Origin: Liolophura sinensis
Taxonomy: Eukaryota > Mollusca > Polyplacophora > Chitonida > Chitonidae
DNA length: 64,000 nucleotides
NCBI RefSeq assembly: GCF_032854445.1
Contig: NC_088301.1
Coordinates: 54,795,187-54,859,186 of the forward strand
Direction: 5' to 3'
Part shown: positions 4,089-59,416 of the stretch, piece after piece
Numbering within the stretch: position 1 is the first letter of the stretch
Layout of the letters: each line of letters opens with the position of its first letter
Program-made: the position numbers and the translations under genes
Notes under the pieces: model-generated
What the model was told of the DNA's origin: nothing
The model's input: only the letters and a program-made list of their open reading frames with translations
Database searches by the model: none

Positions 4089-4380
4089 GAGCTCACAAAA
4101 CTCCTTCCCGCCTGTATCAAGATGGTCCATAGCTGTGAACTCGTTTGTTCTTTCCTTTGTTACCATATGTCACAAGTATTGGTGTAAGTGTGATCATAAA
4201 ACATATAAGAAGCACACACGTACTTTAACATCACAGCAGAAAACAATGCATTTCATTATCACTTTGAACCTTCTCTGTACTCGTCCTCACCTCTCCCATT
4301 GTGACGTAACAAAGGAAAGAAAAAATGAGTTCACATCTTTGGACTGTTTTGATACAGGCAAGGAGGAGTTTTACGAGATC
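4089..4380. repeat. imperfect inverted repeat, 75-bp arms
   Basis: The arms at 4089-4163 and 4306-4380 are reverse complements over 75 bp. By eye 62 of 75 positions match without gaps, and the spacer is 142 bp. The inner ends read GTTAC and GTAAC; the outer ends read GAGCTC and GAGATC. Each arm is open on the strand where it starts VTKER. A third, single-armed and more diverged copy lies at 11656-11714. This looks like a foldback or MITE-like element. No target-site duplication was found. Confidence 0.6.
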
Positions 4381-27429: not shown

Positions 27430-28403
27430 ATGACAACACTTGTGCTTCAACCAAAATCAATGACACGTGCCACTGAGTGGAGCGCACAAGTAGAAGAAGC
27501 CTACAGATTCCAGCTTGCTGGTTACCGAGATGCTAATGAGTACGGCTCTTTTCATGGGAAAAATGTAAGCACACCGACATCTATGATACATGTAAGGCAA
27601 ACTTATTTGCTATGTCTCCAATGAATTATAAATTAAGAAGATCCTTGGCTTGGACTTCTGCATTCTCTCAGAACTTGTATATTACATACATGTTACTAGT
27701 ATGACATACTTATAGCTCATTAAATGTACATGGGCTTATGTGGACCTGTTCTGTTTTTTTGCGTGGCGCAAAAAACAAGCTTGCAGGTTTCCCCTTGTGC
27801 AAATCCAAAGAAGAACAAGTGTAGCGAATCCAGATAAGTCTGTATTTATTCAATAACCTATTTTTTATACACCAAATATGAATCGCTTCCACTAGGAATC
27901 AAAATTTAGCCTCTGAAATTGAAAATTTGACAGAAAAATTTAAGATCCTAAAACGCGTAGGAATACCATTTTGAATGGCACAAGAATTTGTACGGGGAAA
28001 ATTTTTCATTGAATGATGTCATGGTAACGTCACATTACTTACAACAACGTGTGATATGAACATTGCTAATGGAGATGTGCAATGCAACACATGTGCCACA
28101 ACTAGCCATTCTGTTTAAGAAAACCAATCCACACCAAAGTTTACTACATTTATAGCTATTCAGTGAAATTTGCTTTAATATGCATTAGAATTTAGTTTTC
28201 CTAAAACCCATGCTCCTTCTATTTTGTGGAACCAAAAAAAATGATTTATTCACTTGATTCTGTTAATGTTGTAGGTTGACAGGTGGCCACACAATGGTTT
28301 TGTGAAAAAGTTACAACGGAAAGATGGCTGTTTCTACTACTTCAACAAAGAGAGAGAGTGTCCTGAAAAAGACATTCCCAAATGTAAACTCTACGCATAC
28401 TGA
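27430..28403 (+). CDS. MEIG1: MEIG1, meiosis-expressed gene 1 homologue
   Basis: Coding exons 27430-27564 and 28275-28403 (TGA) give 87 residues; human MEIG1 has 88. Family landmarks are [15 protein letters not shown] in exon 1 and [32 protein letters not shown] and the C-terminal KLYAY in exon 2. The ATG is in an exon that begins at 27421 after a TTCCAG acceptor, so a non-coding exon lies upstream; the donor at 26722 (AAG then GTAAGC) is a good candidate. In mammals MEIG1 binds PACRG and helps carry cargo along the manchette during sperm flagellum formation; in other animals it is a likely ciliary or flagellar assembly factor. Nothing is missing or broken. AATAAA follows at 28606-28611 and again at 28918-28923. 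Confidence 0.96.
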
Positions 28404-34400: not shown

Positions 34401-37400
34401 CATGGCTTTAACTTTTCACATTTAAAAATTTTCAGAGAATATTGTTAATCCTAGTCACAAGAATTGTAATGAAATATTCAGCACTGGTAGCTGATAACAC
34501 ATCAGAAAATGAAAGAGTAATAAAATGATGCTTAAAAATAGTTTATCAATACTGGTGATTACAGAGTGTGAAAAAAGTCTTACGGAAAGAGGCAATTTTC
34601 TTTACTTTGTCTTCCATTTGCTCTATAAGTTCATGAAGACGGCACTGCTTTGCTAATCTTTTACAGTCTTCCATGTTCTTAATGTGCACTTCTAAGTGCC
34701 CTGAAAATGAAATGGAAGGAAAGACAATATCCAAATGAGTTTGAAAGATGACATAAATGTACATTAAATACATGAATAAAGTATGTACATGCTAATTGCT
34801 TCCCATGCCAGATGGGTTTGAAGACATAAATCTACACTAAATACATGAGTAAAGTATGTACATGCTAATTGCTTCCCATGCCAAATGAGTTTGAAAGATG
34901 ACATAAATCTACACTAAATACATGAGTAAAGTATGTACATGCTAATTGCTTCCCATGCCAAATGAGTTTGAAAGATGACATAAATGTACACTAAATACAT
35001 GAATAAAGTATGCACATGCTAATTGCTTCCCATGTGTAAGAGAGTATAATGTAGTGGCTATCTACAGTTGTGCCAACACTGGTAAGAAGGTGAGTGGGGC
35101 ATTATGTGGAAAGTATTAATAATAACTGACAACTTTTTGCATCACAAAATGAGTGAGATCAATAGGAAAAATGACCTGAATAATGCCACATATGTGTATC
35201 ATTTTTACCTTACATAATATAAGTACTAAGTAAGTATCTTTGTGTCATTACCTGTATAGAGGTATTGCAAAATGGATCGGAAGGCCCAAGGTAAAACCTT
35301 TAAATAGAGACATTTTGACACTTAGAGTAAACCAATATATAAATACATTATTACCCAAACTGGATGAACCTTGATGATCATACATCATTTCCAATGGTTT
35401 AGCACATGAAGGTAGCGATTTGGATGACAAGAAGGTAAAACTTTTCTGACCAATGATATCTCCATGTTACACATCCACAAAGATAACTTGTACACATATG
35501 CAATTAAGCTTTCATTAAAAATACCCCCTCCCCCTCCCAACCTCCCTCGCCCCACCCCCAAAGACAAAGATCATGGAAAGGTGTTGTACCAGCTGGTTAT
35601 TGAGATGGATCTCCCTCCTGTCTCTCCATTTTGTATGGAACATGTCATTAAAATAGACAGATCTCGCACTCAGTATACTCTTATGGGCTGGAATCGACTC
35701 CCTTTGAACAACAAATACCACATCTGTATAAAACGCATCCTCCAGCAATCTGAAATAATAGAATACGCTTGTTTTATAATAAAAGCCGTAAAAACATTTG
35801 TTTTCTCTGCTGCAGAATGGTCTCCCCTGATGCACTTCCATATAATTTCAACCTCTACTTGTACTGGCTGAATGAGAAGTTCAAGGTTTTCCTGTCAAGC
35901 ACTGTTACTAAAAGTGTATCAGTATCAGATTTATATACATATTACCATTAAAAACCTGGTAGATGAGACATTCAAAAAATGTGAAATCTGCAGTCATAAA
36001 CTTGATTCAATATTTAATTCATGGTTAGCAGCGCAATTTAAATCGAACACAACAAGCAGAACTGGATTTGAGCCAAAGACTTCGTGGGTCAGGAGCTGAA
36101 TAGCTGTAGGAAGAACAATGCTTCAGCTGCAATGGCTTGCCAACCCGCTATTGTAAATGTAATGCAGTCTGTATTCATGTTCTCTAATGAAAGCTAATCA
36201 CAAGAGCAAGATATTTTTACAAACCGCCTCAGAAATTCATCATACAGATCCCTCCTCATTGTTCTCGATGAGACCATGTTGTAGGACTTCAGGAGGTTTT
36301 TTATCTCCTTAGTCAAGGCACCATATAAACACCTCTCCCCATCAAATGTGTTTGCCTCACACTTTGCTCCTATGGGCATAATAATAAACATATGCAGGAT
36401 TATACATCTTTTTTTTTAGGGGTGGGGGTGGGAGCAATTTAGAACAAAAAGTACTCTAACTTTTCTTTATTTTCAAAGAACATGTCACACTTACATTTCT
36501 AGACAAAAACTGCATACAGATTTCAAAGCAGATTTAATGGTCACATCTAACAGATGTGATCGCTCAATATTTCCCACAGGCACAAGTGACGAGCCAGTTT
36601 CAAGCTGTGTAAAAACACATTAGTTCCTCCTTAGTTATGCTTCAATGTGACCCATTACAAGAAGAAAAAGTGATTACACTGTTTGAACCGACTTGTTTTA
36701 GGCAGATTCAAACCTTTCTGATGCAAATAGAAATATATTGTGAACTGTTCACAGGCCATAAGACCATTTATATTTGAATTTTACCATTCATGTTATTTAT
36801 GTAAATAAAACTTATGCATACATGTACATGCATTTGGTGTAAAATGGATAATAGCTTTATACTCTATTGTTACTGATAGTAAATACATACCATTATCTAA
36901 TAAATACTTCACAAGGCTTTTGTGGCCACAGAGACAAGCATAATATCTGTAAATGATATAGGTTTAAATTAAAAAATAACAGCTAAAAGAAGCAGAAATC
37001 CATTTTAATGCTCTAAAAATATACTTGTAAAATTTAAATTTGTAATTAAAAGCAACAAAAATCTCTAACATTTTTGTTAAATTCTACACTTTAGTTATTA
37101 TGACTTTTCAGAGTCTTGATGCATATCATAAAGGTATTATTATTTAATAGCATCTGTAATTAATAGTCATAAATGTACTGATCTGACCATAAAGCACATT
37201 AACAGCACTTGCAGCACCAATTACTATCTGACCTGCTGTGCTTGCACATGATGCTCAACTTACAAAGGAGTACTGTCCCACTTGTCCCTGACATTCAGCT
37301 CTATTTCCTTTTGCTCCACCAAATACCTATAAAAAAAGCCACTCTGGTCAGTAATATTCAACATACATGTTAATAAGATAAAGAGATGTACATGTGTGTC

Positions 37401-38631: not shown

Positions 38632-41600
38632 ATGAATATCGCTAACACCATTAGGAAAAGTAAATATACTCTTTACATCGTCTTCAGTTGTATTTGATTA
38701 AAACATTTGATTTTGTTAACCTATAAACCTCTACTACTAAACATTTTTTCGGAATTTTCTAAAACATTACATGTTATAGTAAAATATTTATTATTTATAA
38801 TGTCGCACGGGACTCACTTCCATGAGGATGCACTTTGACCTTAAAGATGAAGTCACATGGTCTGCGTACATGTAGGTAGAGACGACCAAGAAATATCGGA
38901 CTGCCAAGTGGGCGTCATAATGCTTGTTACTGTTACGTACATGATTCTGTGTTCATTAGGTCAGGTTTTACTGCTGGACTTCTGATATTTTAGTATGGTT
39001 GAATGTTGGAGGAAATTTTCAAGTGGGGTGAAAAAATTTCAAACCAAAAAAAAAAAAAAAAGATAGAAAAACGTGAAATATTTCAACTATGAAGGAGATA
39101 TTGTAAATGTTTCAACTGTGGCCCGAATGAGAGGTGGCGTAATTATTAACCTCATCAAATGTTAATCGCCACCACCTTCAATTTCCCGGCATTTCTTGAT
39201 TGAAATATTTTCCCAAGATTGAATTTGAAATATTTCACTGTGGCCGAATATTCATATCTATACCAAATGTATGAAAAACTATTTTATTGGCTTTGCAGAT
39301 ATAGGCTATCATTACTGTTTGATTGTAGGCCTACCACCATGCATAAGCCTATATATTTAATACAGGGCTCTTGGGATGGCTGATGGCTTATTGACTGTCA
39401 TTTAGCCTGTGCATAGTACACACAATTAATTGTAGGTTGCAGTCTGGTCATCACAAGTTGGAATTAAGTATGTGTTTATCAACTGCTTGCCTGACACCAC
39501 TACATGGTTTACTCAGACCACTCCATTGTAACACTAGGAACTTAGATTTTGTAGGAAAGCTATGAAATTAGAGCTTGCCAACTCAATACGTAAAGTACAA
39601 AGTATCATACAGAAACAATCAGAAATTGTATGACAGTTGTAATGCAATAGGACATTGTTCAATGTTTATTTGAACGTTACAGGTGTGACTTGTTTGTCAG
39701 TTGGGACATCAATCTGGTACTTCCAAAAATATCAGAGGCAACAGAAGAAAAGAAGATGTGTGATGATCATGTCACGTTATCCGAGTCCAGGATCCACGAA
39801 AACACGACTAATTCCTACACTTGGGGAAAAAGGGGCTGCAGTTGTACAGCTTTACATGGTACAGTAGTCTGATGTGACTTTTAAATATGACAGATGTTTC
39901 AGTCATACTTATTGCTTAGTTTATTGAGCACTGTTTTGGTTATATATAAACACAATAAATGTTTCCTGGTATCACGTTAGTCCCATTACTAGGATATTTG
40001 TTGTTGGAATGACATGGAAAAACACCAGACATGACACCTTGCCTAGTCACAATAAATAGTAAAATGGAACCATCTTATTCCCTTAATTGGGGGCCTCTGT
40101 GGCTCAGTTGGTTAGCGCACTAGCGCAGCGTAATGATCCAGGAGCCTTTCACCAATGCGGTCGCTATGAGTTCAAGTCCAGCTCATGCTTCCGTTCCAGC
40201 CTAAATGGAATGTCTGGCAGCAACATGCGGATGGTCATGGGTTTCCCCTGGGCTCTGCCCAGTTTCCTCCTACCATAAATCTGGTTGCCGTCAGATAAGT
40301 GAAATATTCTTGAGTACGGCATAAAGCACCAATCAAATTAATAAATATTCCCTAATGGTCATTCATTGAGGGATAATAATTAAGATTTTGGGGTTTGAAC
40401 CCAGCTCTTTACCCACAGGTGTGTATGTATACATAGTATTATTTAGATGATGACAGCACATATGTAAGTTTGTATGATACAGTAGACATGTGTGAGACAT
40501 GGAGAGACAAAAGAGTGGAACATTTATTCTGAGCCGTCCAGAAACAGTGAACAACATCAGGGAGTGCAACAGGGGCTTCCTATCAGTGTTGTATACAACA
40601 GGCAACAAAAACAATTGTTGAGTAACCATGGTAACCAAAATACCAAAACAAATGTGATATCTGTATGTTACTTACATTACGTGCTTACCCAATATAACAT
40701 TTCATAACAATATCAGCAGTCCATAGAGACTTCAGAGCAATTGACGGGGTTCGTTAAGTACACACCATTACTACTAACTGATAATGATATGTATGTGATA
40801 TATTATTGTACGGGTGGTAAACCGTGACAATCTGTAATTGTATGTTACAAGCTGCATACTACCTATGTAGATCCTTGTGACTACGTAGCCTGTGACTTTC
40901 ATATGGTGTGCTCATATCCACCTTGCGCTATCAGTCTTACATGTATGAATGACCATGGGGATGTAATTGTTAACTGTTATAACTTTGAAATATAATATGA
41001 ACAAGAACTCTGGTAATACATAATTAGCTAACTAAACATGCTTTAATGTAACTGTCAAAAAATGATGTTTGCCTTAAAGGTGATATCTCATTGGAACATC
41101 ATGTAATATGACAATGCACTGCACATTCAGTAATGTGAACAATACTGCCATTTAGCTGATATCGTTGAATGTCTTATCATGAACCTTAACTAAATGGACA
41201 TGTATGAGACCATATTCATAAATGTGTTATTGCCTTTTAACTCTTGATTAAAAGTTATTTACCATATAGCATGACACCAGAGAGCACAATGTTGATCACA
41301 GCCACAAGTCCTGTTACTTACAGGGATTATGGGAACAGCCACATGTAGTAATCCAAAGCAAACAATCACGTTAACACTTACATTGAAAAATGAATGACCA
41401 ACTGCAACACATGTTCATATCTGAAACTTCATACACTCAGGACATTCATACTTGTCCAAATGTCTTCTCACCATAATGCTGACTGTCGTTTTGTAAAGTG
41501 AAATATTCTTGAGTACGGCGTAAAACACCAATGAAATAAATAAATAAATATTTGTCCAAATGAACTAAAATGATGTAGAGTACTTACCCATATATGCTCT

Positions 41601-44600
41601 TATTATCCCAGATGCATATTTCTTACTGTTTTACTGACATGTTAATTGTATTAACACCATTGCTACAGGTAACCAACTGAATGAGAACATATGCACCACA
41701 TTCTTATCAGCCTACAGACTGACCAGGCATGGATAGCTGGTACATTTTCAAAGATTATTAATATTCTTAAATATTGCACAACATATATTTCCATAGATTA
41801 GGTCATCATCACTATCAAGGCACACATGAAATCATGTATTTATGCAGGACACCAGAACACAAGTCAAGTTACCAAGGTACATGTACAGTAAACATTCTCT
41901 AATAATGTACTTTACTCACAGATACAAGAAACAAGTCTGAGCTTATATCCCAAACTACCTTAAAACAGTGTCACATAATTGGTTGATCTCACTACCTGTC
42001 ACAACATCAATTGACTACATGTATAAACATAATGGTTACCCGTGATCACAAGTTACATACATATGAAAACTTCAGTATGCTAACATTCCTTGATTTATAG
42101 TGTACCAAAAGCTCAACTGGTCTCCTTCATCTTATTGAATGTTTACGATTGAATTGTCACACTGAATGCATTTACAGTTAAAAATAATGAACAAAGGATA
42201 TCTTCACACACACAGTCTGTCACTGTGTGTAACTTTACAGTTTATGTAGTGGTATTATATTAGCAACCTACGATCTGCATTTACACAAATCTTAAATATG
42301 TAATGTTGCCATTACGTTCACATCAAGGGAGGTAGCTCATACAATAAGTGCAAGTGATCAAAATCATGTGCGTGATGCTCGAAAAAATTTATCAGGCTCT
42401 CTTAGAAAACAAGAATGAACTCAGGAGTTAATGGGGAAGTCTAAAAGGTGAGCTGCTGCTGGTTAAAACTGACATTGATGCAAACACAGCTGCCATCAAC
42501 AATCTTCAGCAGGTGAAAACAGAGATGAAAATTGAGATGAGTCAGGGAATTAGCCAAAAGTTCAGATAAGCAGGCTTTACGACTTGAAAGGTACACTTGC
42601 AGTTTTGATTTACTCTTTTGTGATTTCTGGAAGTGGAAGGAGAAAACTATGCAGATTTTAAAGGACTTTATTGTGAATGTTATACACATGGAGTATGTTG
42701 TGATTGAGTTGTGATTGGTCAGAGAAGAAAAAACGTAAAACGCGATCTACAATGGCTAAGTTCATCTAACAAACATAGAAATCTGATGTTCTCCATGCTA
42801 TGAAGAAAATCCTTAAGGCGCCAAATTCAGTAAGTTAAAGAAGATTTGCCCAAAGAAGATCAGGAGAAAAAAGAACGGATACAGGATGTTGTCCAAAAGG
42901 TCTGCAAGGAAGACAGGCAGGTGGTGTTTAGAGACGGGCATCTGTTCATAGAAGGCAGACTTTTCGAATGAATTTTCCTTGTGACCCTGGCCAGAAAGAC
43001 CATCTGACTCAGAAATTCTCGCTTACAGCAAATGCTCCAATATTACAAATCTTTCAAGACAATGCATGAAAAGCAGATAGTGCACCTAGCTCATACGTCC
43101 AAACAATACATACACATAGAATGTTTTATTTTAGCACACATTTACATTTAACATTTGCGATTTTTCTGATCTATCTGACTGTCGCCTGACATGAACTTGA
43201 ACTTAAAGCTAATTTCCATCCTTTTCTTTTTATTTCAGTTTTACTTCTTTTGGTTCTTGACGTTTCCATTGGAAAATCAGTTTGATACAGTTGAAATATC
43301 TGCTCTTAGATTAAATATTGATGCCATGATTTGTATCATGTGTTGATTTACTGTGCTAAATTAGTGCACATCATGTAATATCCCATGTCTGCATTAGTGA
43401 AAAACTAATTGTTTCATTCAGGCAATCTCAGTAGCAGTAGTTAGGCCCATTTTAACAAGTGAGCTCTTTTTTTTTCTCAATCTTGTACTCCTTTACATTT
43501 TCTAGGAGATTTGAATTTGGGGGAAAATTCAAATATGTTGTTTGGGGAAAGGGGATCTATTTCATTGTCACAATGGTATGTGTTATGTCATTAACTGTAA
43601 GAGAACTAAGGTATAAGGGACAAAAATAAGAGAAGAGAAATGTTTCTATAGTTGAAAAGCCAAAAAGCTGATTTTTATTTCCTTCAAGAAGTGCATAGCT
43701 CAGTATCCGGAAAAAATCTGGATGAAAGAATGGGGGAATCAGATAGAGTTTTCTCATGGAAACAATGTGTCCAGAGCAGTATCAATCTTATTTCATAAAT
43801 CTGTAAAAATAATGAAGCAGGAGAAGACATAGATGGTCGATATGTTTTTCTTGAAATTGAGCACTGTGCATGCATATACAACTTAGCAAACGTATATGCC
43901 CCAAACTCATTAACTGAGAGAGAAAACCTTTTCCGTCTAATAACTATCATTTTATTAAATAATTTTGATTGCTCTAATTTAATTCTTGGAGGCAGTTTTA
44001 ATACTGTGATCAATCTATACATTGATAGGAAAAGCTGGTCTAATATTCACAGCTCTACTAGGGCTAGCTCATTTTCCATGACCTTATAAGTGATTTAAAT
44101 GTAATTGATGTCTGGAGAGAAAAGAACCCAGTCATTTACGCGGCGGAAAGATAATAACACCCAGTCAAGGATTGACTTTGGGCTTGTATCATTGGGGCTT
44201 TCTGTGAAATGTACTGGAATGAAACGCAATATAAAAAGTGATAGGCAGTTGATATTCTGCTCTTTCTGCCTTAAAAATACATTAAGATCACCAAATGTTT
44301 GGAAATTTTATAATACACTCTTGAACGACAATGTCTTTCATCTCAAGTGAAAGATATGTTGTCAGAATTAAAAGATACTCAGAATAGCTGGGTTCCTACT
44401 CATTTATGGCAATGGCTCAAATATAAAATAATGAATGCTGCAATTAAGTGTTCTAAGGAAATGTCAGTTAACAGGAAGAAAATGAACATGACTTAGTAAA
44501 ACAGCTTACAGTTATTGATAAGCAATTTTAATGGATCTCATAGATCTGTTAAAAATGTTCAGACATTTGACGACTGTTGAAGGCAATTAGAGGAAATATA

Positions 44601-47600
44601 TACAAAAAAAAAAGCTCAAGGTGCATTGCTTAGATCTAGAATACGATGGGAAGAAAAATCCACGAAATACTTTTTTAATTTAGAAAAATCATGTGCCAGC
44701 AAAAAAGTGATTTTGAAGATTATTGATGATGTTGGTGTTGAAGAAAAAAATCCCAGTGAAATCCTGTTAGAATTACACAAGTTTTGTTCTAATTTATATT
44801 CTTCAAAACATGAGATAGACTATAATTTTGATGATAACTCTGACTCTCTTACAGGAAATTTAGAGGCCCCTTTGGCCTTGGAAGCTGAAAACCATGCCCT
44901 GGATTCACCCTTTACAAAGGATGAATTATTTGATGTAGTCAAATCTCTCCAGTCAAACAAATTTCCTGGTTCTGATGGACTGACAAATGAATTTTACAAA
45001 TGCCTTTGGACTGACCTAAAGCAGTTTTAGTTGAGACCAGTACATTATTCTTTTGATATGTTTATCTGAGAGTAAATCAAATGGGAGGTATATTAAGGCT
45101 ACTTGAAACCCTGTCAAAGGCCTAAGTTACCTGAAAAATTGGTGCCCTATGAGTTGCTAAACACAGGATAAGCTACTGATACTTGCAATATACTTGCAAA
45201 AGTGGTCATACTACATGAAACACAAACTGGCTTTATTAAAGGGAGGTATATAGATGAAAATGTGTGATTCCTGTTGGAATTATTAGATAGCTATAAAAGA
45301 AGTGGATTTTTGCTTTTTATTGACTTTTGAATGTAGAATTTCAGCTTTTGGAGAGAGCCCTAAAGGTATTCAATTTTAACGAGAACATTTGCAAATGGAT
45401 AAGGCATTTTTACAGTGGAACGTCAAGTTGTGTTGTTAATAAAGGTTGGTCTACGAATTGATTCAACAATTCAAGGGGACTAAAACAAGGTTGTCCATTA
45501 TTAACTGACTTATTCATAACATGTGGAGATTATCAATATCATATTAAAGAGTATGGCACATATAGAAGGAATAATGATACATGAGCACATTGTTCAACAT
45601 TAACATTAAGAAATGCTAGTTCAGTTGAATCAGCAATGGATTCCTACAAGAGTACTGAAAAATGCAGTGGTCTCAAAGTTAACTCTCAAAAAACTTGCCT
45701 TGTGAGAACAAATAATAAATCCAAACTTTTCAAGAAATAAGTATTGCTTAAGCATTGTTAAGAAAATTGTTTATCTTGGAATGAAGTTTTCCCAAGACTA
45801 CAATCGAATGCAGAAAGAAACTTTAGATCCAAGTATTAAGAAATTAAGGACACAGCTACAAATATGGAATGGTTGAGGTTTAACTTTTTCTGCGAAAATA
45901 CTTTTTCAAAGGCCGAGTGTATATCAAGATTAGTTTACCTGGCTCCCATGATTTGTTTATAAAAGAAGTATTGCAAACAGGTGAACAATGAACTATATAA
46001 ACATATATGGAATATGGGAATATTGTTTTAATGAACAAAGCCTGAAACTCCTTTGGCTCCACAGATTTTTTTCAGAAGAAAATCATTCCGTCATTTTGCT
46101 TTAATAAACTTGCTTCAATAAAGTTTTATATTGAACTGTAACTATAGTCCCAAAAAACTAGCTAATAAAATTTCAAATTTTATTGTCATATTCAGGACTT
46201 CTGGTTAGAATTGTGTGACCAAACAACTACTTTTTCTGATTGAATTACCAGGAACACTAAGCAGATTTTAAAAGGTAGGAAAATGCAGAGGATGTTAAAT
46301 CGCTAAATGTTGTATCAAATGAATTTCAACTTCCTTTGGACTATGGAAATTCTAAATTGTGGAAATCTCTTGAAAAACTCTCTTAGTGATATATTATCAG
46401 GAAATACAGATAGGCCAGAAGTCTTGTTTGACATCAAAAAAAAAAATAAATGATACTGGCTATAAATAAAAACAAAATGTTTCTACAAGCTCCTGGTCAA
46501 AAAATATTGGGCCAAAGTTGATGTTAAGAATATACCTGATAATTTTCTTGTTCTTGATGATTTATTGTGGACTCTGACTTTAAAGTTGTGTAAATAACAA
46601 AAGTCAGTCTATGCAGATTTAACTGTGTTCATCCATGTAACAGTTATTTGTTTTCATTAACAGTTTTGGAATACCCTACCTGTACCGTGTGTGACCAGAT
46701 ACATAGTATTGTGCACAATATTGTTACTTGCTCAGCTGAAACACAGTTTTAGGATATATCCCAACAGTGACTGCCTCAATTTCAAAGGGGATTTCTTTCA
46801 AGAAAATAACTTTTACATCTTGTACACTAAATACTGTATATATTCAAACCATGTTTCACAGAAGCCCATATACTCAATCTGTTTTTCAGCTTTTTTTTCA
46901 AGCGGAAGTCACTACCCTTTTAAAAAGTAAAGGAAAATGTAATTTTTGCAAATATTTGGGTAGAATTTAGTTTTATGTTAATGTTTAATCTATATTCCTC
47001 GTTGTATGTTAATGATTAAGTAAAAGTTTTCCATCATGTGTTCAATTATACCATGATATAGTTTATAAAATAACACTCTTGGTTGATGTCCTAATTTATA
47101 ATAGTGTAAAACTAACATTACTATATGCTAAATTTATTAACCAATGGTATATATGGGGAACGGGTGGGGGTACATTTGTGTATATTGTCAAGTATTGCTT
47201 GTCAAGTAACAAGTATTGCAGTTGCCCATTTGTATTTTTGATTAGTTCTTACTTTCAAATTACATACCCGGGCCATGAGAGCTATATAAATGACCTTTTA
47301 AAAAGTGACATTTGACAATAAACACCAACACTAAAAAAAAAAAAAAATCGTTAAACAATGCTTGCCTATAACACAACCGTCTCAGAAGAATAAGATCAGT
47401 TGGTTGGGAATTTTCTCTTGCAAATGCAAGACATGGGGATTTTTTTTAAAAAAAAAAGGGAACTTTGAGAGCAAAATTAAAAAAAGAAATCTTATCTAAA
47501 GCCCAATGAATCGTCACTGAGTAAGGCCCTTTTTGATTATAGCATATAAAAGTTTTCCTTTGCTTTTTCAAGCAAACAAATCAAGGCTACATTTTCAGTT

Positions 47601-50600
47601 TCAAGAACAAAACTATCATATACGCATACTTTACAAGACTAAATATACAAAATGTAAATATATTTTTTTTCAGACTGAGAAAATTTTGGACAACATTTCT
47701 GGTGAAGCAATTCAAAACCCTGATGTACGTATAGAACTCATGTACTCAGGAGTCTCAGAGTCTAAGATGGATTATTGGTTAGGGAAAAGAAGACAAAGTA
47801 CCCAGCTGTCCTGGAGGCCACAGGCTCCTGGGGGATTAGGAGATAAACTGATTGCTGCCTTTTCTACTATGTTCAGAGAAGGTGTACATCAGGCTGTTGC
47901 TGTAGGTAATTATTTTCTTTTCTGCAAAATTATAGAAACAAGAAAAAAATGAACAGAAACATAAAGTATAGAGAACAAAAATGTTGGTCTGCTAGGAAAT
48001 TTTATGTGCTGAAGCGTGTGTATATGTAAGTGTGTCTGCCATTTTCGCTGTCTAGCTGCTTGCCTGCCTCTGTGCCTCTCCATCTTCCTCTGTCTGTTTG
48101 TAATCTGTCTGTCTGCTGTCTGCCTGTTTACTTCTGTTTATAAGCCTAAATCTGTGTGTCTGTCTGGCTGCCTGTCTGCATCTGTATTTATCAGCCTAAC
48201 TGCATCTGTTTATAAGCCTGTGTGTACCTGATTGTCTGCCTGCTTGCCTTTGTGCCTGTCTTTGTGTCTTTGTCTGTCTGTAAGCATAACTCTTTTTGCC
48301 ATTATTTTCTGCCTGTGTGTCTGCCCATATGCCTGTCTGTCTGTCTTTATTTGTCGGTAAGCATAACTCTATACGCCTGCCTGTGTTCCTGCCTGTCTAT
48401 CTGCCCATGTGCCTGCCTGTATGTCTGTAAGTCTAATTTTATGTGCCTGTTTTTTAACTCTTTCTGCCCACCTGTCTGCCTGTCCATCTGCCTGTATCTG
48501 TCTATAAGCCTAACTCTGTGCCTGTCTATCTGCCTTAGTGCCTGTCTTTGTCTGTATATATTTATTTATTTATTTATTTATTTATTTGATTGGTGTTTTA
48601 CACCATACTCAAGAATATTTCATTTATTCGACGGTGGCCAGCATTATGGTGGGAGGAACTCGTGCAGAGCCCTGGGGAAACCCATGACCACCCACAGGTT
48701 GCTGGCAGACCTTCCCACTTACGGCCGGAGAGGAAGCCAGCATAAGCTGGACTTGAACTCACAGCGACCGTATTGGTGAGAGGCTTATGGGTCATTACGC
48801 TGCGCTAGGCCCCCTTTTGTCTGTATGTAAGCCTAATGTAGCATACACTATTTAAGGGGAATAATTCTAACTATATTCAGTGGTGCTGCTCTCACATGAT
48901 TGAGGGGAGATGCCTTCATGTTGTAGCTACAGGCTCAGATGCTTCCATCCTGTCAACTGAACAATTTGATAAACATTTCTTAAGACAGGCTGTACAGCCT
49001 TATACTAGTTCAATTATTGGCTATGCTTTTCACCCTACACTTACTGTTGGCTGTTTCAAGGCTAACGTTACGTGTAAAAACAAATGTAGCACAGCCAATT
49101 TCATTGTTGTTGAGCAAGGTACGAGTCTGTTACAGAAAGATTTAATCCGGACCCTTGATATCACAATACAGGGTAGTTCACTGTCATGTTTTTCCACAGA
49201 TGTTTGTATACCTGAGATTTCCTGGCCGGCTGTTCAGACAGCAAGAAACAAAAATCCTAGCATAAATGAGGAACCTAAGATTTGTTAATGAATTTCCATA
49301 TTTATTTTAATTTATTGTCATTACGCACAAGAAAAACGGTACTTTGGGTATATGCACAGATTTTAGAGCTCTAAACAAGATGATTGTTCTGGAACGTTTT
49401 CCTCTGTCCAACATTGACGAAATGTTGAATGACATGCATGGTGCTACATATTTTATGCAGTTAGATTCAAAATCCGTGCATATACCCAAAGTACCGTTAT
49501 GTTCATCACACATAAGGAGTTATTTTGTTACAAATGCATCTGTTTTGATCTCTCGTCCACCATGCTCTCAAAAAATGATGCCAAGCATTCTTTCTGACAT
49601 TCCCCGTGTACAGTGTTTCGTTGATAACATCATAATTTTTGGCACTGAGCAGAAGTTTTGTGTTGGACACGACGCTTCATGTTGTACTTCAACACTTACA
49701 GGACAGACAGAAACTTGACACTGAATGACAAATGTGAGCTTGATGTCTCATTGATAAAAGTTCTTGGCTATATTCTGAACAAAGAGGGTATTTGCCTTTG
49801 CGAGGACCTTGTTTCCGGCATTGTTGATGCTGCAGTCCTTGAGTACAAACAGCAACTCATTTCTCCCTCTCGCGGGTACAAAACATCAGTACAAAAGTCA
49901 GATGTGTGAGGTGCAAAACTCTGAACCATTCGTTTGAACCATTCGTTTGAACCATTCTGACCAAAGTTTGATGTATCTGCCCCAGTTTGACACTGTACAA
50001 CCCCAATCACGACATCACGGTTACAATTGATGCCAGCGGTTACCGGTTTGGGGGCACTACTGAATGGCACACATATCTCTGGGGTCATCATTTCACATTA
50101 TACTAGTTACGCTTCTCTTGTATGGCTAAGGTCATAAACCTATGCAGATTGCACGGTGGAATGCACGGTTACTCCACTACAATTGCATGGTTGAATACAA
50201 ACCTGGAACCTCCAATAAGGTGGCTGATGCTGTTTCATGCTTACCGAGACAGTAGGCCAAGCATTGAATGAAGATTGCAGTCTGTGCAATCGGAGTTGAC
50301 GATTCAATTCATGCCGTTACCCAGGCTGAATTACTTGAAACTGCTGATTTCAGTAATTATCTGGGGATGGCTGACGGCAGAGGATTGTGCCACTATCCTC
50401 TCTGACACCTCAGTTGATTGAATATGCTCATGAAAACCATCAGGGCATTGTTTCGAACGAAAGTATGCTTACGCGACTTATGCTGGTGGACCACAATGGA
50501 CAAAAACGTCCAGGAGGCAATACATAACTAAGTTACATGTCAGTTGGCTGATAAATCGGTGGTTACATGAGTTGCACCGATGCAGCAAGTTATGATTGCG

Positions 50601-53600
50601 GAGAAACCGGGCAAAAGCTTGGACTAGATCTTGCAGGCCCAAAACTTAATGCGCCAGCTAACGAGAGATAAATTATATCTCTGATTGACTACAGAAGTAA
50701 ATGGCCAGAAGTTGCCTTTAGGTCCAATATTACAGCCAAAACAACAATTTCCTTTCTACTCTCTGTTTTCAGCAGAGAAGGTTACCCGGATGAAATCGTG
50801 AAGGACAACTGTCCTCAATTAGTCTGAGATTAATGAACGAGTAAAACAGTGACAAGCCCGATCGAAGGAAGGATTTGAGAGACATCATTGTGTCTCGTTC
50901 CCTTACAGCTGGTACATTGGTTAGAATCAAGAAACCCTGGCACACACATAAAGGGGAAAGTAAATTTTCTAGTCCTATAAAGATTTTGAAAACAGTTGGC
51001 TCACATGTTAGTAAATGGTCAAAAATGGAATGAAAAACCCCTCTGTGTACAGTGGACCAATTACACGCTCTTTTACCGAGAGGGGAAATGGTCAAAATAG
51101 CTTGAAGATTTCAGATTTTCAGGGTAATGGAAACTGCGCAGTGTACAACCTGCACTGGAAATTACTCCCAAATCCACTCTGGTAGTCGTAGAATCAGTTA
51201 GTAGAACCTATAGGTTATGTTGGTTTCATTGTGATTTGGTTGTATCTTTACAAACGAGAGGGGAAATCTGGCATACACTATTAAGGGGGAATAATTGCAA
51301 CCATATTCAGTGGCGCTGCTATCAAGTGATTGAGGGGACCTGCCTCGATGTTTTTGATACAGAATCTCTCCTACTCCACAGCATTGTTCTCTCTATCAAA
51401 CTGCAGTACCTAACTCTGCCTGTCTTTGCACGTCTGTAAGCCTGACTCTCTCTGCCTGTCTGTCTACTGTGTACCGGTACTTATCTATCTGCCTCTGTCT
51501 GTCTGTAAGCCTAACTCTATCTGCCTGTCTGTCTGTCCATGTGCCTGCCTTTATGTCTTTGTCTGTAAGCCTAACTCTGTGTGCCTGCCTATCTACTTGT
51601 GTGCCTGTCAATCTGCCTCTGTCTGTTTGTAAGCCTACCTCTGTCTGTCTGCCTGTCTTTGTTTGTAAACCTATTTCTGTTTGCCTCTGCCTGTTTGAGG
51701 CTTAAGTCTATCTACCAGTCTGTCTGCCTGTGTACCTGTCTATCAGCCTCTGTTTTTTGTATGCCTGTCTGTCTACATGCCTTTCCTTCTTTTTAATGAT
51801 AGGAAGTGACATACCTGAACTTGATTCTGAAATCATTGAGGAGGCCTTCAGTTTGTTGTTAAGCGGTAAGTCCATGGTACTTGGAAAAGCTGAGGATGGA
51901 GGATACTACTTGGTGGGATTTCACACCATTTGCAAGATCAGCTGGGTAAATTCTATACAAATATCTCATCATGATCATTAAGAAATCACATATGGAGATT
52001 GCTACTTGTATGCATAAGAACAGATTTTGTCCTATATTGGACTACAAGAAGAATGTGCCCTGTTATGCTGTTTATTTATTTATTCATTTTTTTATGTTTT
52101 CTTTTTTGGCATAGAGCAATTTTATAGATGTACATGAGCCACTATTTGTATGAAATTTAGAAAATACATGTAGGTTAAAAAGATAACTTGATGGTATTGC
52201 TCATCTATAAATGTCTTTCCAGATGATATTTTCAAGAACATAGATTGGGGATCAGAGCATGTATTTGAGCAGCAGATAGAGAAGGCTCGTCACTTAGGTG
52301 TGAATATTGGCATCCTAAGGAGAACTCTCTCTGATGTGGTAAGACAACTGGAGTACGGAAACTTTTCGACCCTTTCATCTCCTCCCCTGGACAACTCTGC
52401 CTCATAGACAGTACCTTCAGTGACAAACCCTTTTCTCTAACCCTCCCCACCACCACCACCACCTATTCATATTTTAGAATTATAAAGAGTTCAACACCAT
52501 GGAGTTAATCGGTATCTAGCAGACGGTATTAGGAGAGCTACATGTACATGTATTGTTTATCAGATGGCTTCAATAGTCTACATTCATCTGTTAGTAAAGG
52601 TCACAAAAAGTCTAACTACCATGTCTTATTTACATGCGTATCAGGGTGAGGGCTATGCAAGGAGAGAGAGAGAGAGAGAAAGTATTCTTACATTCATGAT
52701 AACCAGGATATCGTTTGGCTTTATGTTATAATATCATCCCCCCCCCCCACTCCACCAAAATTTTTTTCAGAAAATTCATATGTTGTTTTTAGTCAGACTG
52801 GTTCAGTATTGTGTTTATTTACTTTTGGTTGTTGGTGTGAATTTCGCATCTTGTATTCCAATTTACATTTCATGTAGATCTGTTATTTTACCATAGACAC
52901 ATAAAAGTAGTATATAAAAGTAGTCTTGAACTAACTATTAACAGCACAGGTAAACCTTTAAGCATTGGATTCTGTAGGTTAAGTCATTAATTATCCCTTC
53001 ATCAGGTACAAGATCAGGTGTAATGGGTTCCTCCTGCCGGCCCTAAAATCTGATGTTCAAAGATTTATCATGAGAAACATTTGTTTTTTCTAGGACTCAT
53101 ATGATGATCTTCCTGTGTTTGAGAAAGCCATTGGGCTATCCACAACTCAGCTGTTGCATCCTTCTTTAAGCATTATTATCCCTGTGTATAATGAAGTTGA
53201 CAACATCAAAGAAACATTAGAGACTATTGTTCAGGTATGTTTTTTTAATAGAAATAAATGAAGTATAAGTTAAATCTCAACAATAGATCTTGAATCAGAG
53301 ATTCTCGTCTAGTATTTTATGTAGCTGTATTGTTTCTGTTTTGTTTTTTTTTCTTTTTTGGAAGTATAAAAAATATGTTTTAATATAGTGTGTGATTTAT
53401 AAGTATTTCTGACAACTGTTTTAGCATGCAAAGTTTAAAGAAAGGCTAGAGATAATAGTGAGTGATGGGGGAAGCACTGATGGCACAAAGTCAGCTGTCG
53501 GGCTGTTTGCTCATCACAATAGCGTACCTATTAGAGTTGTTGACTGCCAACCAGGTAAGTGAAGTATATTTGTAATTATGTATTAAACAAGGCAATAATT

Positions 53601-56556
53601 ACCGTCTTGCAAATGTGAAGTCAGTACTTTTACATTCTCAGAGAGAATCTATTTTTCAATGTTTTGGAAAAGAGGAGCACCATACTTGTTCTCTGGATCC
53701 TTACCAGCTCCACTGGGGACTATAGATTTACCCCTCATCTGTCAGACCATCAAAAATCTGTCCTAAATTCATTATTCATTGTATTTAATCGAAACTTGGT
53801 ATGGCCTTTTTGTCTTGTTTGGACTTACATGTGTGGCTGGATTAGTCCTTCAAAACAGTTTGTCAGAAAGATTTGAAACCTGATATATGACATGACAGGT
53901 TACAGATCATTGGTCGTTTTTTTAGCATAGCCATAACACAATGTGGTAGAGTCAACAGAACCATGTGTAAATATACTTTCGGATATGTATTCCATAAAGC
54001 TGATAAATCCTTTTGTTCTTCTTTGTAAGAGAATTCATGGAAAATTCACAACTGCTGTATTATTGTCTTATCTTTCCCTGATGTTATTACAGCAGTGTAA
54101 ATTCAAAGGAATACAAAACCAAAAAAAAAAAAAAAAAAAAAATGGAAAAGATGTGATTGAGAACTATTCGTATCTTGTAGGTCTTGATTCTACACAGCTC
54201 TTTCAGGCCAGGTTGATTGGCACTACTTTGAATGAATGATTTTGGCTTAAAGCCACATTGGCAGTCCCGGCCGTTGCGTGAAATGTCAGAGATTGTAAAA
54301 TATATATGGATAAAACTGGACCTCAGGATGCTGTGGAAGAACAGATTTGAAATGCAATAGTATATGTAAACACACTAAAACATTGATAAAACGCTTACTC
54401 TGCATACTCCTCCACCCGTAAGCTTGGTCACTGCCATATACATGTAAGTGAAATATCTCTGGGTAAGGCATTAATCCTGATTGAATAAACAAATTATACA
54501 GGCAGAGGGCCGCAATTGATGAGTGGGGCAAGTGCAGCCAAGGGGGATAATTTGCTGTTCCTTCATGCTGATAGTGTTGTACCAGAGGATTTTGATGAGA
54601 CATTAAATGAATGTTTACAAGTACCAGGGAATGTTGGTGGAGCATTTGCATTTGATGTTGACATCTTGTACCCAGAACTTTGGTGAGTAGGCGAACAATA
54701 AAACTAGTATGCAGACATTAACTTTCATACAATTATATTTTTAAAAAAAAAGACATACAGTTTTACTTGTGGAAAAGCTGTTACAATTTCTGTATTGTCT
54801 CAATGTTCACACTCTGTAACCCTTATCTTAAATTAAGCACCATCTGTATGTGTGGCTGTTGAGTGCCACACTAGCTATTTTTACTGAGAGTTACTTTTCT
54901 GGAGCCAAATCTGTCACTTGGTTCTACCAACTTACATGTATGGTCATAGTCATGTACGTCTCTTTGTTTGTCATTGATAAGTCTGAAGAACCATTTCACG
55001 TATCAGTATCAGATTTGGTCGATTTTATCTCCCGTTGAATAGAAAGCCTGTCAAACATACGTGTCAGCAATGTTTCACAGAGCTATGCCCTTTTACATGA
55101 AAGTCAAATTTGCTTTTCCAAATTCAGTGAAATTTCATGCGTGAACTCACTGCAAGGCAAGTAAGACCTTCATGGATATGAAAAAAATATGTTTTGAATG
55201 TCATTGTGACAACTTCTTCTGTTTTCTATTTGAATAAATTGACCAGTAACCTACCATTTATTTCAGTTATATTGTTTTCATTTTGCTTTGACCTTGTGTG
55301 TTCACGCACCTGTGTAACTATATATTTGGGTGAACCTTAATGGGGTATCCTGTAGTGACTTAAGTGTTTTTGATGCAACTTTAATTTAGGAGGTGTATCT
55401 GGTACCTGGCTAAAGGTGGTGGTTTACTCCAGGTGCTCCAGTCTCCTTCACACACTATTTCATTGAAAGTTGCCATATCATGGAAAAACCTAAATAATTC
55501 TTAATAAATGTTGTAACCGGACTAAAGGAGGAGCAGTTATATCAAAACTTGATTATATACCAACATGTACAATGTTGTAATGTGTTAGTTTCTACTGTGC
55601 TTATTGTATTGTTAAAAATGTCTTGTCATTATGAATTTTTCATTTTCTTATCAAATTGTAATGAAAGACAGAATAGAGAGTAAAACAATAGCAACAACGA
55701 CAATGTGACATTTGGCTAATGGTCACACATTACCAGTGAAATATGGCCTCTTGTCAGTTTAGGTTTTATTCTAACTGTTCATGTAAATGCTTAAATAGTA
55801 GTGAGGCGATTTTGTTAGAGACAGTATATTATTTCATATAATTGCATGGCAGGTTAGGGGTTAATTTACTGCCTTGTCCATGACATAGGTTTTACCTGTA
55901 GAATCTGAATTTTTATGGGTTAGAGATATCCTTAAATTAAATTAGAATTTTGTGGAATATTTAGGAAGATTTTGAACATATAGAGACAGGATATTTTGTG
56001 GACTCATGAGCACAAGTTATTTTTGATATAACTTTTGAAGGAAACAGTTTCTGTGGACCCCTGTCCTGTCCAACATAAGAATTTTAATACTTGATGATTA
56101 AATTAGATGATCATATTTCACGTATAATACATTCACATGTTGAAGGAGTTTTGCTGATAATTTCCCCACATATGGCTGACATATTGTCTATATAACAACA
56201 GTAGGACATGCCGGTATCACAACAGAACTAGGATTAACACTTCCCTGAGATATCCATAACACAGTTACCCATACCAACTGAAGTACAGATGTCGTCTGCC
56301 TGCATACAGTACCTGCACCTTTACATATATATATTAACATACTCCGTTTACTTTATTTTAATAAAACTGTTGCTGCTGTTTGTTGAACCTTGAAATCAGA
56401 CTTTTCTTGGTTATTCGAAGTTCAGAGCTAACTAGTGGAAGTATACAGATATTGTTTCAGAGTTCGACACTGGGTGTTTCACGCTACCAATATTGTGTTT
56501 TCCCTTGTGGTAAAGGGTGTGACTTGGAACTGGGATATCTATATCATCAAGAAGAT

Positions 56557-56589
<33 letters not shown>

Positions 56590-59416
56590 GAAATAAAAAA
56601 AATTGCTACAGTAGTAAATGACAGGTTCCCTAGCAGCATAGGTTAAGCAGAACTAGGTAAAAAAAACTGGTGTTTTAATTGCAATTTATTAGATGTCACT
56701 GATCTAAAAATACTCAAAATGTTGTGTTATCACATTTAACATATAGTAACATTTAAAAAAAAGTGCAAAGGGACTGAAGGATGCTTAGTCCACCACCAGA
56801 AACCTTCAGAATGACTGTTTGTCTACCTATTTTCTTTTCTTTATGTTTTGCTTATGTTTTTTTTTTATCAAGGACTAAAAGTGTTCCATTACTGTTCAGT
56901 TGGAAAATGAAAATGATTCGAAAACTGACACAACTCAGATCTTGCAAACTAGGTGAGTCTTGTCACAATATTTATTGTTGAGGTACATGTATGTATTTAT
57001 AATAGAACACACCGACCTGCACATCTAGAAAGGATTTTTTTTTATTTTCTCTGCCTCAGAAAACTTACTAGCATTATAGAAGTGAAAAATTAAGGAAAAA
57101 AGTTATCAAACTAATATTAATCTGTAAATGTGCATCTTGTGTTTTGTTTTTCTTCTGGACAGATACAATCAAAGGTGTCTGTCCAGATCAACGGAATACA
57201 TTTTAGTCATGTGAGTGGTCCATTGTAGCATGCCATTAATCTTGTCCTTGGTTTGTTTATGGTTAATCTCTAGCATTTTTTTCTATATATTGTTTTTTTT
57301 GTGTGTGAGAACAGTTATCATTGTAAATTGACTGAGTTACCTTCCACCATATGTGTACTTGCCAAAGGATAATAGCTTTCTGCTGGTACTGTTATACACG
57401 TGAAATATTTTTGAGTATAATGTTAAACCCCAGTCAAATAAATGCATGTGTGTACATGGAAATAACATGTTTCTTCGTCAGAATTACCCTATGGTGACCA
57501 AGGCCTATTCATGACAAGATGGACCTATGATAAAGTGGGAGGTTTTGACAAAGTGTACCTGATGGAAGATTATATAATGGTAAGCTATTGCTACAGTCTT
57601 TTGAAGAATTGTAAATAGCATAGAATGGTCTTTTTTTTACTTCAGTTTTTGTTAGTAATATAATTGAGAGTCCATGGTACTGGTAGGTTCTTGATATACA
57701 ATGTATGAGAGTGTATGAAAGTGGCTCTATTTTTGAGACCTTTGCGTAGTTTTGAACAGAAATCCATTACATATTGTGTATGAAAAAGATAGTTGGAAAA
57801 CTCTCCGTAGGACACAGTTCATCTATTTATCAAAATCAAACAGTTTTTCTCTCCTTTGGTAAACTTTGGCCAAAGGACATGGTCAGGTTCATGTACATAT
57901 AGGCTCATGTTCATATATGTCCAATTGTGTTTGTGAATCTGGAAACCTGTCAAAGGGCAATCCTTTTGGACAATGTTTTACTAACCTCTGACCTACTTCC
58001 TTGTGATCATATTTTATACTTGACAAGCTGGCATTACATGTGTATCTTCAAACATTCTGAGCCCCGTTTCAATGAATCTTCACACATAACAACTTGCACA
58101 GGTCCATTTGACAGTGATCTCCAAAACTATTGAGCCAAGTAAAACAAAATTCCATACTTGTACATACTTACATGTAACGAGCAAATGTCTTTTGTCTACT
58201 TTTGCATGTTTGAGTTCATAAAAGGCTTGCATACTGTTATGTACTCTAAACTACAGCTGAATTCAATGGAAATCCATACATGGATGAGTTGTTTCCCCAG
58301 ACTGAATGGCCTTAGACCTACGTTCAGTGCATGCACCTTTTCAGGTCCGAGACACATGCTTTTGGAATAGATTATGCTTACAGTGTATTCTTGATGCCTG
58401 TATACTGTCATATACATTGCAGTCGTAGCGAGGATGTAAACACATTCATATTGTTGTTTTACCAGGTAATGTACGTGTCTTTGTTATACATGTGATAGTG
58501 AGAGGAAGTAGATAAAATCCACACAGTGTGTTACCTTGGTTATTTCCCAAAAATTGACATACTAGGACTAATATAAGTAATAATTTTTATTTTATACAGG
58601 TGGAAAAGTTAAAGCAATGTGGCCATGTTGTGATAGCACCAGGTAGCCCTGTTATTACCTCTGCTCGTAGATGGGTGGAAAATGGAGCATTTAAGGTGAT
58701 TTACCCATTTTGAACTGTTTGTCAGCTAACACACATGTGATGTACCTATGTAAATATTATGACTGCTTAAAACACATTATTTTCTGTCGTAAGATGTTTT
58801 ATCCCCAAATATTTTTGTGTGATGTCCTTTGAACAATTTTGCAGAGCTATCATGCACTGTGTAAACTCTGGTCTGAATTTAAATTTGATTTTAGACCTCT
58901 ACGAATGAATATGATCATAAGTTTATGCAGCAATTGAGCATGATCCACGTCAGAGTTTCTTGCTGCACGACCCATTTTCAACAAAATTATGTTAATTTTT
59001 CTTCTATTTTGGAAGTTGATGGTATTCCAGAATTTACTCAGAACAGTTAGTTATTTTGAATTAAAAAGTGGTGTATGTACATGTTACAGACTAAGTTCAG
59101 GTTTTGGGCCATTTCATCATTTTCAACAAAATGCTGGTTGTTGTTGTTCTGTGGTGAATTTTGACATAGCCATTATTCTGATGTGTCAAACCAGTAAGGG
59201 ATATGTAAAAAGCCATACTTCCAGAGTCCTTGGTTTATATAATTGCTCTTATCATTTACAGTATATCTTTAATAATTTCTTTTGTGTTTTGTTTTGCAGA
59301 CAAGCTTACTGAACCTACTGATAGCCACAGCATATCACCTGGGCGTTGCACCTAACACCCTTGCAAGATGGTACTATGGAGAAAAGCTGAAAAAAATTCT
59401 GGATGAGGAGAAGTAG
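38632..59416 (+). CDS. fused TIGR04282 + TIGR04283 glycosyltransferase-like protein
   Basis: Twelve exons: 38632-38659, 39683-39858, 47674-47905, 51803-51931, 52223-52338, 53094-53234, 53425-53554, 54502-54682, 56873-56952, 57482-57579, 58600-58695, 59300-59416 (TAG); about 507 residues. Residues 11-23 are a short hydrophobic, possibly anchoring, stretch. Domain 1 (about 36-230) matches rSAM/selenodomain-associated transferase 1: SRYPSPGSTKTRLIPTLG, GGLGDK (near 124), GSDIP (146-150) and AEDGGYYLVG (175-184). Domain 2 (about 252-495) matches transferase 2, a GT2-type fold: SIIIPVYNE (253-261), DGGSTDGT (288-295), GRGPQLMSGA, HADS (339-342, metal-binding position), GDQ (409-411), MED (432-434) and TSARRW (457-462). 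In bacteria these families adjoin arsenosugar-type radical-SAM genes; the substrate is unproven. Exon 1 is a phase-matched guess. Exon 4 needs a GC donor at 51932 to stay in frame. AATAAA lies at 59745. Confidence 0.88.
40089..40348 (+). repeat. full-length tRNA-derived SINE
   Basis: The A box TGGCTCAGTTGG (40100-40111) and B box GAGTTCAAGTCC (40168-40179) are near consensus. Then come TGGCAGCAACATGCGG, GGTTTCCCCTGGG, TTTCCTCCTACCATAAAT and TGAAATATTCTTGAGTACGG, with an ATAAATA tail. It is the best-kept copy of this family in the window and lies in intron 2 of the glycosyltransferase gene. Confidence 0.88.
41461..41551 (+). repeat. SINE 3' fragment
   Basis: It starts TCTTCTCACCATAATGCTG and runs through GTGAAATATTCTTGAGTACGG to (AAATA)n, the 3' third of the element at 40089-40348, truncated at its 5' end. 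Confidence 0.8.
42360..47347 (+). mobile_element. degenerate L1-like LINE with poly-A tail
   Basis: A 5-kb non-LTR element in intron 2 of the glycosyltransferase gene, same strand. ORF1 remains run from about 42400 to 42971 (a stretch with coiled-coil character, then FRDGHLFIEGRLFE and TGA). The endonuclease region starts near 43570; LKSQKADFYFLQEVHS, NVYAPN and a LGGSFN variant of LGGDFN are visible in broken frames to about 44180. The reverse transcriptase begins in the clear segment 44626-45030 (RIRWEEKSTKYFFNLEK, NKFPGSDGLTNEFYK) and continues in frameshifted pieces to about 45900. The 3' end is 15 or so A residues at about 47333-47347 after AATAAACACC. Many stops and frameshifts make it inactive. 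The 5' boundary is approximate. Confidence 0.85.
48010..48558. repeat. TGTCTGCC/TAAGCCTAACTC minisatellite, left block
   Basis: Pyrimidine/G-rich low-complexity array of CTGTCTGCCTGTCTG with periodic TAAGCCTAACTCTGT. The open frames of up to 185 codons across it (CLSVCL-type peptides) are artefacts. The same array resumes at 51410-51790, after a SINE and a retroelement. Confidence 0.9.
48559..48815 (-). repeat. full-length tRNA-derived SINE, reversed
   Basis: The reverse complement of the family at 40089-40348, with (TTTA)n at the left, CTCAAGAATATTTCA, ATTATGGTGGGAGGAA, the B box in reverse (GGACTTGAACTCAC) and TACGCTGCGCTAGGCCCCC at the right. It is inserted in the minisatellite that flanks it on the left. 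Confidence 0.88.
48841..51352 (+). mobile_element. gutted Ty3/gypsy-like LTR retroelement
   Basis: Two 82-bp direct repeats (48841-48922 and 51271-51352, both starting GCATACACTATT, 69 of 82 bases equal by my count) look like LTR remains. Between them, in order on the plus strand, are broken pieces: a protease-like region near 48923-49280, reverse transcriptase around 49340-49800 with FRALNKMIVLERFPLSN and a degenerate FVDN in place of the active-site YxDD-type motif, an RNase H-like piece near 50010-50110, integrase core phrases near 50640-50830 (DYRSKWPEVAF), and an integrase C-terminal region at about 50860-51100. Gag was not seen and internal length (about 2.3 kb) is less than half the usual. 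Many stops; not functional. It sits in intron 3 of the glycosyltransferase gene. Confidence 0.75.
51410..51790. repeat. TGTCTGCC/TAAGCCTAACTC minisatellite, right block
   Basis: Same composition and the same TAAGCCTAACTCTGT phrases as the block at 48010-48558. It ends about 12 bp before the splice acceptor of the exon at 51803. Confidence 0.9.
54405..54498 (+). repeat. SINE 3' fragment next to a splice acceptor
   Basis: CTCCTCCACCCGTAAGCTTGG, GTGAAATATCTCTGGGTAAGG and ATTGAATAAACAAATT correspond to the 3' part of the tRNA-headed SINE, diverged. It ends directly before ATACAG, the acceptor of the coding exon at 54502. Confidence 0.6.
56552..56590. repeat. (TA)n microsatellite
   Basis: An interrupted TA array of about 30 bp in the intron before the exon at 56873. 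Confidence 0.85.
57345..57446 (+). repeat. SINE 3' fragment
   Basis: ACCTTCCACCATATGTG, GTGAAATATTTTTGAGTATAATG and CAGTCAAATAAATG match the SINE 3' region, diverged. It lies just upstream of the exon at 57482. Confidence 0.55.

Follow-up and report, generated by a model that had tools for sequence, protein, structure and literature searches.

A fused transferase gene in a chiton genome

The stretch of DNA analysed here, 64,000 nucleotides from the chiton Liolophura sinensis (hereafter the window), carries a gene that joins two transferase families, TIGR04282 and TIGR04283. The gene comprises 12 exons on the forward strand (window 38632-59416, +), which splice into one open frame of 1524 nt, or 507 codons and a stop, free of internal stop codons. 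This single predicted frame bears out an earlier note on this DNA, which had assigned both domains to one chain over 12 exons. Exon boundaries were picked by splice consensus and homology. Ten of the 11 introns are of the GT-AG type and one, 3' of exon 4, is GC-AG; a donor search limited to GT across the twelve exons gave zero open-frame solutions. With both GT and GC donors the splice search yields 480 in-frame combinations, and among those listed the differences are confined to the joints.

Exon 1 (38632-38659, 28 nt) is uncertain: it is placed by an ATG start and a GT donor, contributes nine codons in a phase that matches exon 2, and has no homology support. Translation could alternatively start at MIMSRY inside exon 2 (39683-39858), which encodes a basic N-terminal tail and the beginning of the TIGR04282 domain with the motif KTRLIP (TIGR04282 genome-wide match, 1.6e-4). 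The middle part of this domain is encoded by exon 3 (47674-47905), its GSDIP and AEDGGYYLVG motifs by exon 4 (51803-51931; genome-wide match, 5.5e-11) and its end by exon 5 (52223-52338). A linker and the start of the TIGR04283 domain (IIIPVYNE) follow in exon 6 (53094-53234), DGGSTDGT in exon 7 (53425-53554), HADS in exon 8 (54502-54682; TIGR04283 genome-wide match, 3.4e-10), a further part of the domain in exon 9 (56873-56952), GDQ and MED in exon 10 (57482-57579; TIGR04283 genome-wide match, 2.0e-7), TSARRW in exon 11 (58600-58695), and the C-terminus with a TAG stop in exon 12 (59300-59416). Exons 3, 5, 6, 7, 9, 11 and 12 are supported by the spliced frame together with the HMM. All of these motifs stand in the translation. 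Residues 1-35 contain eight Lys or Arg but neither Asp nor Glu, and the six most hydrophobic windows listed for the protein, at two window lengths, all lie outside this segment. A classical secretory signal anchor is therefore not evident, and the protein may be cytosolic or mitochondrial.

Family membership of the fused protein

The fused protein scores 157.9 bits against TIGR04282 (NCBI cut-off 134; E 2.5e-46), with residues 36-233 covering profile positions 1-189 of 189, and 201.2 bits against TIGR04283 (NCBI cut-off 182; E 1.6e-59), with residues 252-494 covering positions 1-221 of 221. Both scores, on which the earlier note had staked its assignment, lie above the curated cut-offs, which excludes chance for membership of either family. 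Pfam recognises DUF2064 and Glycos_transf_2 in the same chain. TIGR04282 has 26 columns with at least 90% conservation across 23 bacterial sequences (a 24th was left out for short coverage), and 23 of these 26 are identical in the animal protein; for TIGR04283, with 31 bacterial sequences, 42 of 54 such columns are identical and 12 differ. The retained columns include KTRL, DGGY, HAD, GDQ, MED and RRW. Overall identity to the bacterial homologues compared reaches 31.6% for TIGR04282 and 37.0% for TIGR04283. Across the 609-Mb genome, at E up to 0.001 and among the best candidates scored, the fused gene is the sole match to TIGR04282, to TIGR04283 and to its own protein.

Two other identities were tried and rejected. 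The protein is far under the cut-off of the F420 enzyme CofC (TIGR03552; 23.3 against 105 bits), and it differs likewise from the mycofactocin enzyme MftF (TIGR03965; 34 bits against a cut-off of 280), with which it shares a related glycosyltransferase domain.

What does the TIGR04282 half do? A profile built from eight bacterial TIGR04282 proteins has four hits in the PDB with E no higher than 0.1. The best is 3cgx, a "putative nucleotide-diphospho-sugar transferase" (8.3e-37), and the other three are weak: 2-phospho-L-lactate guanylyltransferase (E 0.0017), 3-phospho-D-glycerate guanylyltransferase (E 0.0042) and "hypothetical protein MM_2497" (E 0.0069), which we take to be a CofC. CofC/FbiD and the 3-phospho-D-glycerate guanylyltransferases thus resemble the TIGR04282 profile weakly, at the level of sequence. 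On its own, the animal protein matches no PDB sequence but 3cgx within this half, and the CofC model TIGR03552 touches both the animal protein and its counterpart from a gammaproteobacterial locus (L001) with scores below the cut-off. An AlphaFold model of the latter protein, computed from a two-row alignment, has a mean pLDDT of 42.3. By these weak E-values, the TIGR04282 half resembles a nucleotidyltransferase rather than a glycosyltransferase. NCBI applies the term glycosyltransferase to both families, as did the earlier note. That label is kept here for the TIGR04283 half but is probably wrong for the TIGR04282 half, since those relatives that have an assigned function are nucleotidyltransferases. 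Because of these relatives, the fusion is read here as a nucleotidyltransferase joined to a glycosyltransferase, which would first activate a substrate and then transfer it.

Bacterial counterparts

The bacterial comparison comprises 31 loci, namely L001 and the 30 top-scoring loci of a TIGR04283 search. In 24 of the 31, the TIGR04283 and TIGR04282 genes adjoin on the same strand with TIGR04283 first, confirming the claim that the two families neighbour each other in bacteria; at least two of the seven loci lacking this adjacency are cut by a contig end. An enzyme pair that activates and then transfers would explain this arrangement. ArsS, the radical-SAM enzyme of the TIGR04167 family, is encoded directly upstream of the transferase genes in three of the 31 loci, among them L001, where the order is arsS-4283-4282.

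The animal gene and the bacterial gene pair are alike in that the same families score over their cut-offs, the motifs are conserved and an ArsS-family gene is present in the genome. They differ in that the animal has one spliced gene instead of two ORFs, the domain order is reversed (4282-4283), ArsS is unlinked and a basic N-terminal tail is added. None of the 31 bacterial loci contains a fusion of the two families in a single ORF. One such ORF was found among nine further loci chosen for long frames (L080:432-1802, -; 456 aa). It resembles the animal protein in carrying both domains on one chain, yet it is intronless and has the opposite order, TIGR04283 then TIGR04282. The two fusions probably arose separately.

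Co-occurrence was examined in 398 genomes from the phylum of one bacterial genome (G001), with E up to 1e-40 for TIGR04283 and up to 1e-60 for ArsS. TIGR04283 is found in 154 of these genomes, ArsS in 117 and both in 103, which gives an odds ratio of 33 (p ~2e-40, uncorrected for kinship and incomplete genomes). Of the 101 genomes in which both genes could be placed, nine have them at most 6 kb apart, six have them farther apart on one contig, and 86 have them on separate contigs; many of the 86 are fragmented assemblies. The bacterial link of the transferases to ArsS is therefore mostly genome-wide and seldom side by side, and the claim that the transferase families adjoin radical-SAM genes applies to a small minority. 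For the same reason, clustering with ArsS is a weak criterion for pathway membership. A further 51 of the 154 TIGR04283 genomes have no ArsS match, so TIGR04283 may have other uses, and the "arsenosugar" name given by NCBI may be too restrictive for some of its members.

Relatives are also found on plasmids, whose records were left out of the co-occurrence and locus counts. A tblastn search of plasmids with the fused protein matched 85 records, 47 of them from Burkholderia; in 48 of the 85, one place covers at least 80% of the query. The first ArsS piece matched 54 records and the TIGR04283 part 96, and identity never exceeded 60%. A viral collection scanned with the fused protein held no relative. 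Scanned with the bacterial alignments, the same collection gave one contig with 4283-like and 4282-like frames beside genes that look phage-derived by eye, and one contig carrying an ArsS end.

ArsS and ArsM families in the same genome

The search for ArsS and ArsM genes that had been proposed as a check on the fusion was productive for both families. An intron-bearing ArsS-family radical-SAM gene lies at 25.577-25.582 Mb of an 82-Mb contig (C6; locus L008 = C6:25575800-25584200), unlinked to the fused gene, which is on contig C7. The TIGR04167 profile matches six exons (L008 1756-1972, 2623-2730, 3231-3434, 4935-5075, 5866-6044 and from 6511), covering profile positions 2-202 and 212-302 of 303. 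The CxxxCxxC motif is intact. Of 158 columns with at least 90% conservation among 33 bacterial sequences, the animal gene retains 114, and identity reaches 50.6%. Exon 4 contains a one-base frame slip: register is lost after NMP, and the next exon fits the shifted frame only. As assembled, the two parts reach 278.7 and 113.3 bits, each below the cut-off of 300; with an X bridging the slip the score is 394.6 bits. Apart from the slip, and with the TGA at the last Cys treated separately below, no disruption was seen in the six exons. The intron after exon 4 includes a run of N, whether a gap in the assembly or withheld sequence, which hints at weak assembly around the slip. Intron 3 of this gene holds a long array of ~80-nt repeats, seen by eye (L008:3440-4560).

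An ArsM/AS3MT-like gene is located at 56.43 Mb of the same contig. Three pieces of its exons are similar to arsenite methyltransferases of known structure (best match 5.7e-46), and further AS3MT-like exons are seen by eye downstream. The ArsM family model NF008823 gives exon-by-exon matches only, the best at 44.3 bits against a cut-off of 263. Animal ArsM is considered to be of bacterial origin, acquired by transfer (PMC5552862). No match to the peroxidase-like partner TIGR04169 turned up in the animal genome. The animal thus encodes the fusion and has genes of the ArsS and ArsM families as well.

A candidate selenocysteine in ArsS

The ArsS frame ends in HCFGCTAGMGSS-TGA-QGTTV-TAA, and the in-frame TGA coincides exactly with the last conserved Cys, a position that is Cys in at least 90% of the 33 bacterial sequences. 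A published table counts TIGR04167 among the predicted selenoprotein families of bacteria (PMC9312934). The position of the TGA makes it a candidate selenocysteine codon, and the protein hence a candidate animal selenoprotein. Alternatively, the TGA may be a plain stop with the last six residues trimmed. No SECIS element was found in L008 6400-8401 at a permissive Rfam threshold. Genome-wide, the Rfam model SECIS_1 (RF00031) gave two weak matches, both on contig C12, and zero matches over the cut-off, in a search low in power because just 150 of 13032 candidates were scored. No selenoprotein gene was recognised at the C12 site inspected. A SECIS candidate at L008:7690-7722, from scans of 1,802 nt, was rejected: it was outdone by four of 40 and three of 60 shuffles, and was not recovered by a stricter scan of 4,749 nt, whose results were themselves worse than shuffles.

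A proposed arsenosugar-type pathway and its alternatives

Considered together, these genes suggest a route in which the fused enzyme would act after ArsM and ArsS. In the first step, AS3MT/ArsM would methylate arsenite to dimethylarsenic species. ArsS would then put a 5'-deoxyadenosyl group on the arsenic; in oxo-arsenosugar biosynthesis, ArsS reportedly adenosylates arsenic (Cheng 2021, cited in PMC12159101). After loss of adenine, the N-terminal TIGR04282 half, as a CofC-like nucleotidyltransferase, would activate a sugar phosphate, here 5-dimethylarsinoyl-ribose, and the C-terminal TIGR04283 half, a family 2 glycosyltransferase, would transfer the activated sugar to a glycerol-type or lipid-type acceptor. 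We infer the order of these steps, the substrates, the arsenosugar product, a working ArsS, expression of the genes and their membership of one pathway. That the fused enzyme is a nucleotidyltransferase and glycosyltransferase serving a host-encoded pathway of this type is a proposition we would put at about even. Counting against it are the frame slip in ArsS, the missing TIGR04169 partner, the unlinked positions of the animal genes, the reversed domain order, the low exon-wise NF008823 scores and, in bacteria, the TIGR04283 genomes that lack an ArsS match and the scarcity of close ArsS neighbours. A broader proposal is distinctly more tentative: that the host pathway is complete, with AS3MT, an ArsS in which selenocysteine replaces the last conserved Cys, and the fused enzyme, and that de novo synthesis of arsenosugars or arsenolipids takes place in some invertebrates themselves.

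Such a pathway would bear on where arsenosugars come from. A 2024 review reads the presence of arsenosugars in vent mussels as hinting at bacteria as their source, and describes the enzymes that join ribose to dimethylarsenic as not identified (PMC11228943). A host gene set would make the origin of arsenosugars (diet, symbiont or self-made) directly testable, and the fused enzyme would provide an entry point to the final steps, activation and transfer, so far undefined. The ArsS gene may, in addition, add one animal selenoprotein. Among the titles listed in a search of open-licence PMC literature, a scope that implies nothing about absence from print, none dealt with animal ArsS, with animal TIGR04282 or TIGR04283 genes, or with their fusion.

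The strongest alternative keeps the same fold and chemistry and has the fused enzyme activate and transfer a sugar that contains no arsenic, the link of the families to arsenosugars being looser than the NCBI names suggest. The rarity of adjacent ArsS and TIGR04283 genes in bacteria (at most 6 kb in only nine of 101 genomes) weakens the arsenosugar reading and strengthens this one, as do the TIGR04283 genomes lacking an ArsS match. It is also consistent with an open-licence PMC search covering TIGR04283, DUF2064 with glycosyltransferase, and arsenosugar with glycosyltransferase, which returned reviews and surveys by title and no assay. Against it, 103 of the 117 ArsS genomes carry TIGR04283 and the animal genome retains genes of both the ArsS and ArsM families; we regard a non-arsenic sugar as a possible but somewhat unlikely substrate.

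A second alternative is salvage, in which the enzymes would remodel arsenosugars or arsenolipids taken up with food and synthesise none from arsenite. According to one article, invertebrates can acquire arsenosugars by way of the food chain (PMC10456119). ArsS and ArsM would be superfluous for pure salvage, yet genes of both families are present, which makes this account improbable.

The frame slip in the assembled ArsS means that the host pathway may be broken. ArsS could then be a recent pseudogene and the fused gene a leftover or redeployed, a reading further favoured by the TGA that replaces the codon of the last conserved Cys, for which the SECIS scans established no element. It is opposed by the lack of further disruption in the six ArsS exons, by the intact radical-SAM cysteines, by the signs of weak assembly in the next intron, and by the exact fall of the TGA on a conserved Cys in a family of predicted bacterial selenoproteins, according to the table cited above (PMC9312934). 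The fused gene itself is open across 507 codons. Decay of the pathway is, on balance, more improbable still than salvage.

Genomic setting

Although bacteria are the main known source of TIGR04282 and TIGR04283, an origin of the fused gene in bacterial contamination or in the DNA of a symbiont can be dismissed with near certainty, refuted as it is by 11 introns with splice sites, by a position 54.8 Mb into its contig among animal-type neighbours, and by an ArsS gene that also bears introns and sits on an 82-Mb contig.

Seven window ORFs outside the exons were compared with Pfam, of which four matched (Rost, BTB twice and Meiosis-expressed) and three had no match. These neighbours are of animal type, and the region of the fused gene is thus assigned to a host chromosome. 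Rolling-stone-like, meiosis-expressed (PF15163) and BTB exons are seen at window 24698-25186 (+), 27313-27624 (+), and 32016-32315 and 35515-35847 (-). Ankyrin-like pieces are recognised by eye at about 36800-37400.

The long introns of the fused gene contain repetitive material. In intron 2, window 43600-46600 holds motifs that we take to be fragments of a LINE-like reverse transcriptase and endonuclease; an ORF in this intron (44581-45027) has no Pfam match, nor does one in intron 3 (49311-49715). Intron 3 also contains retroelement-like fragments, seen by eye, and TGTC-rich repeats (48102-51700). Tandem arrays occur elsewhere in the window, at 9909-11183 with units of ~51-181 nt and at 34731-35034 with units of 77 nt.
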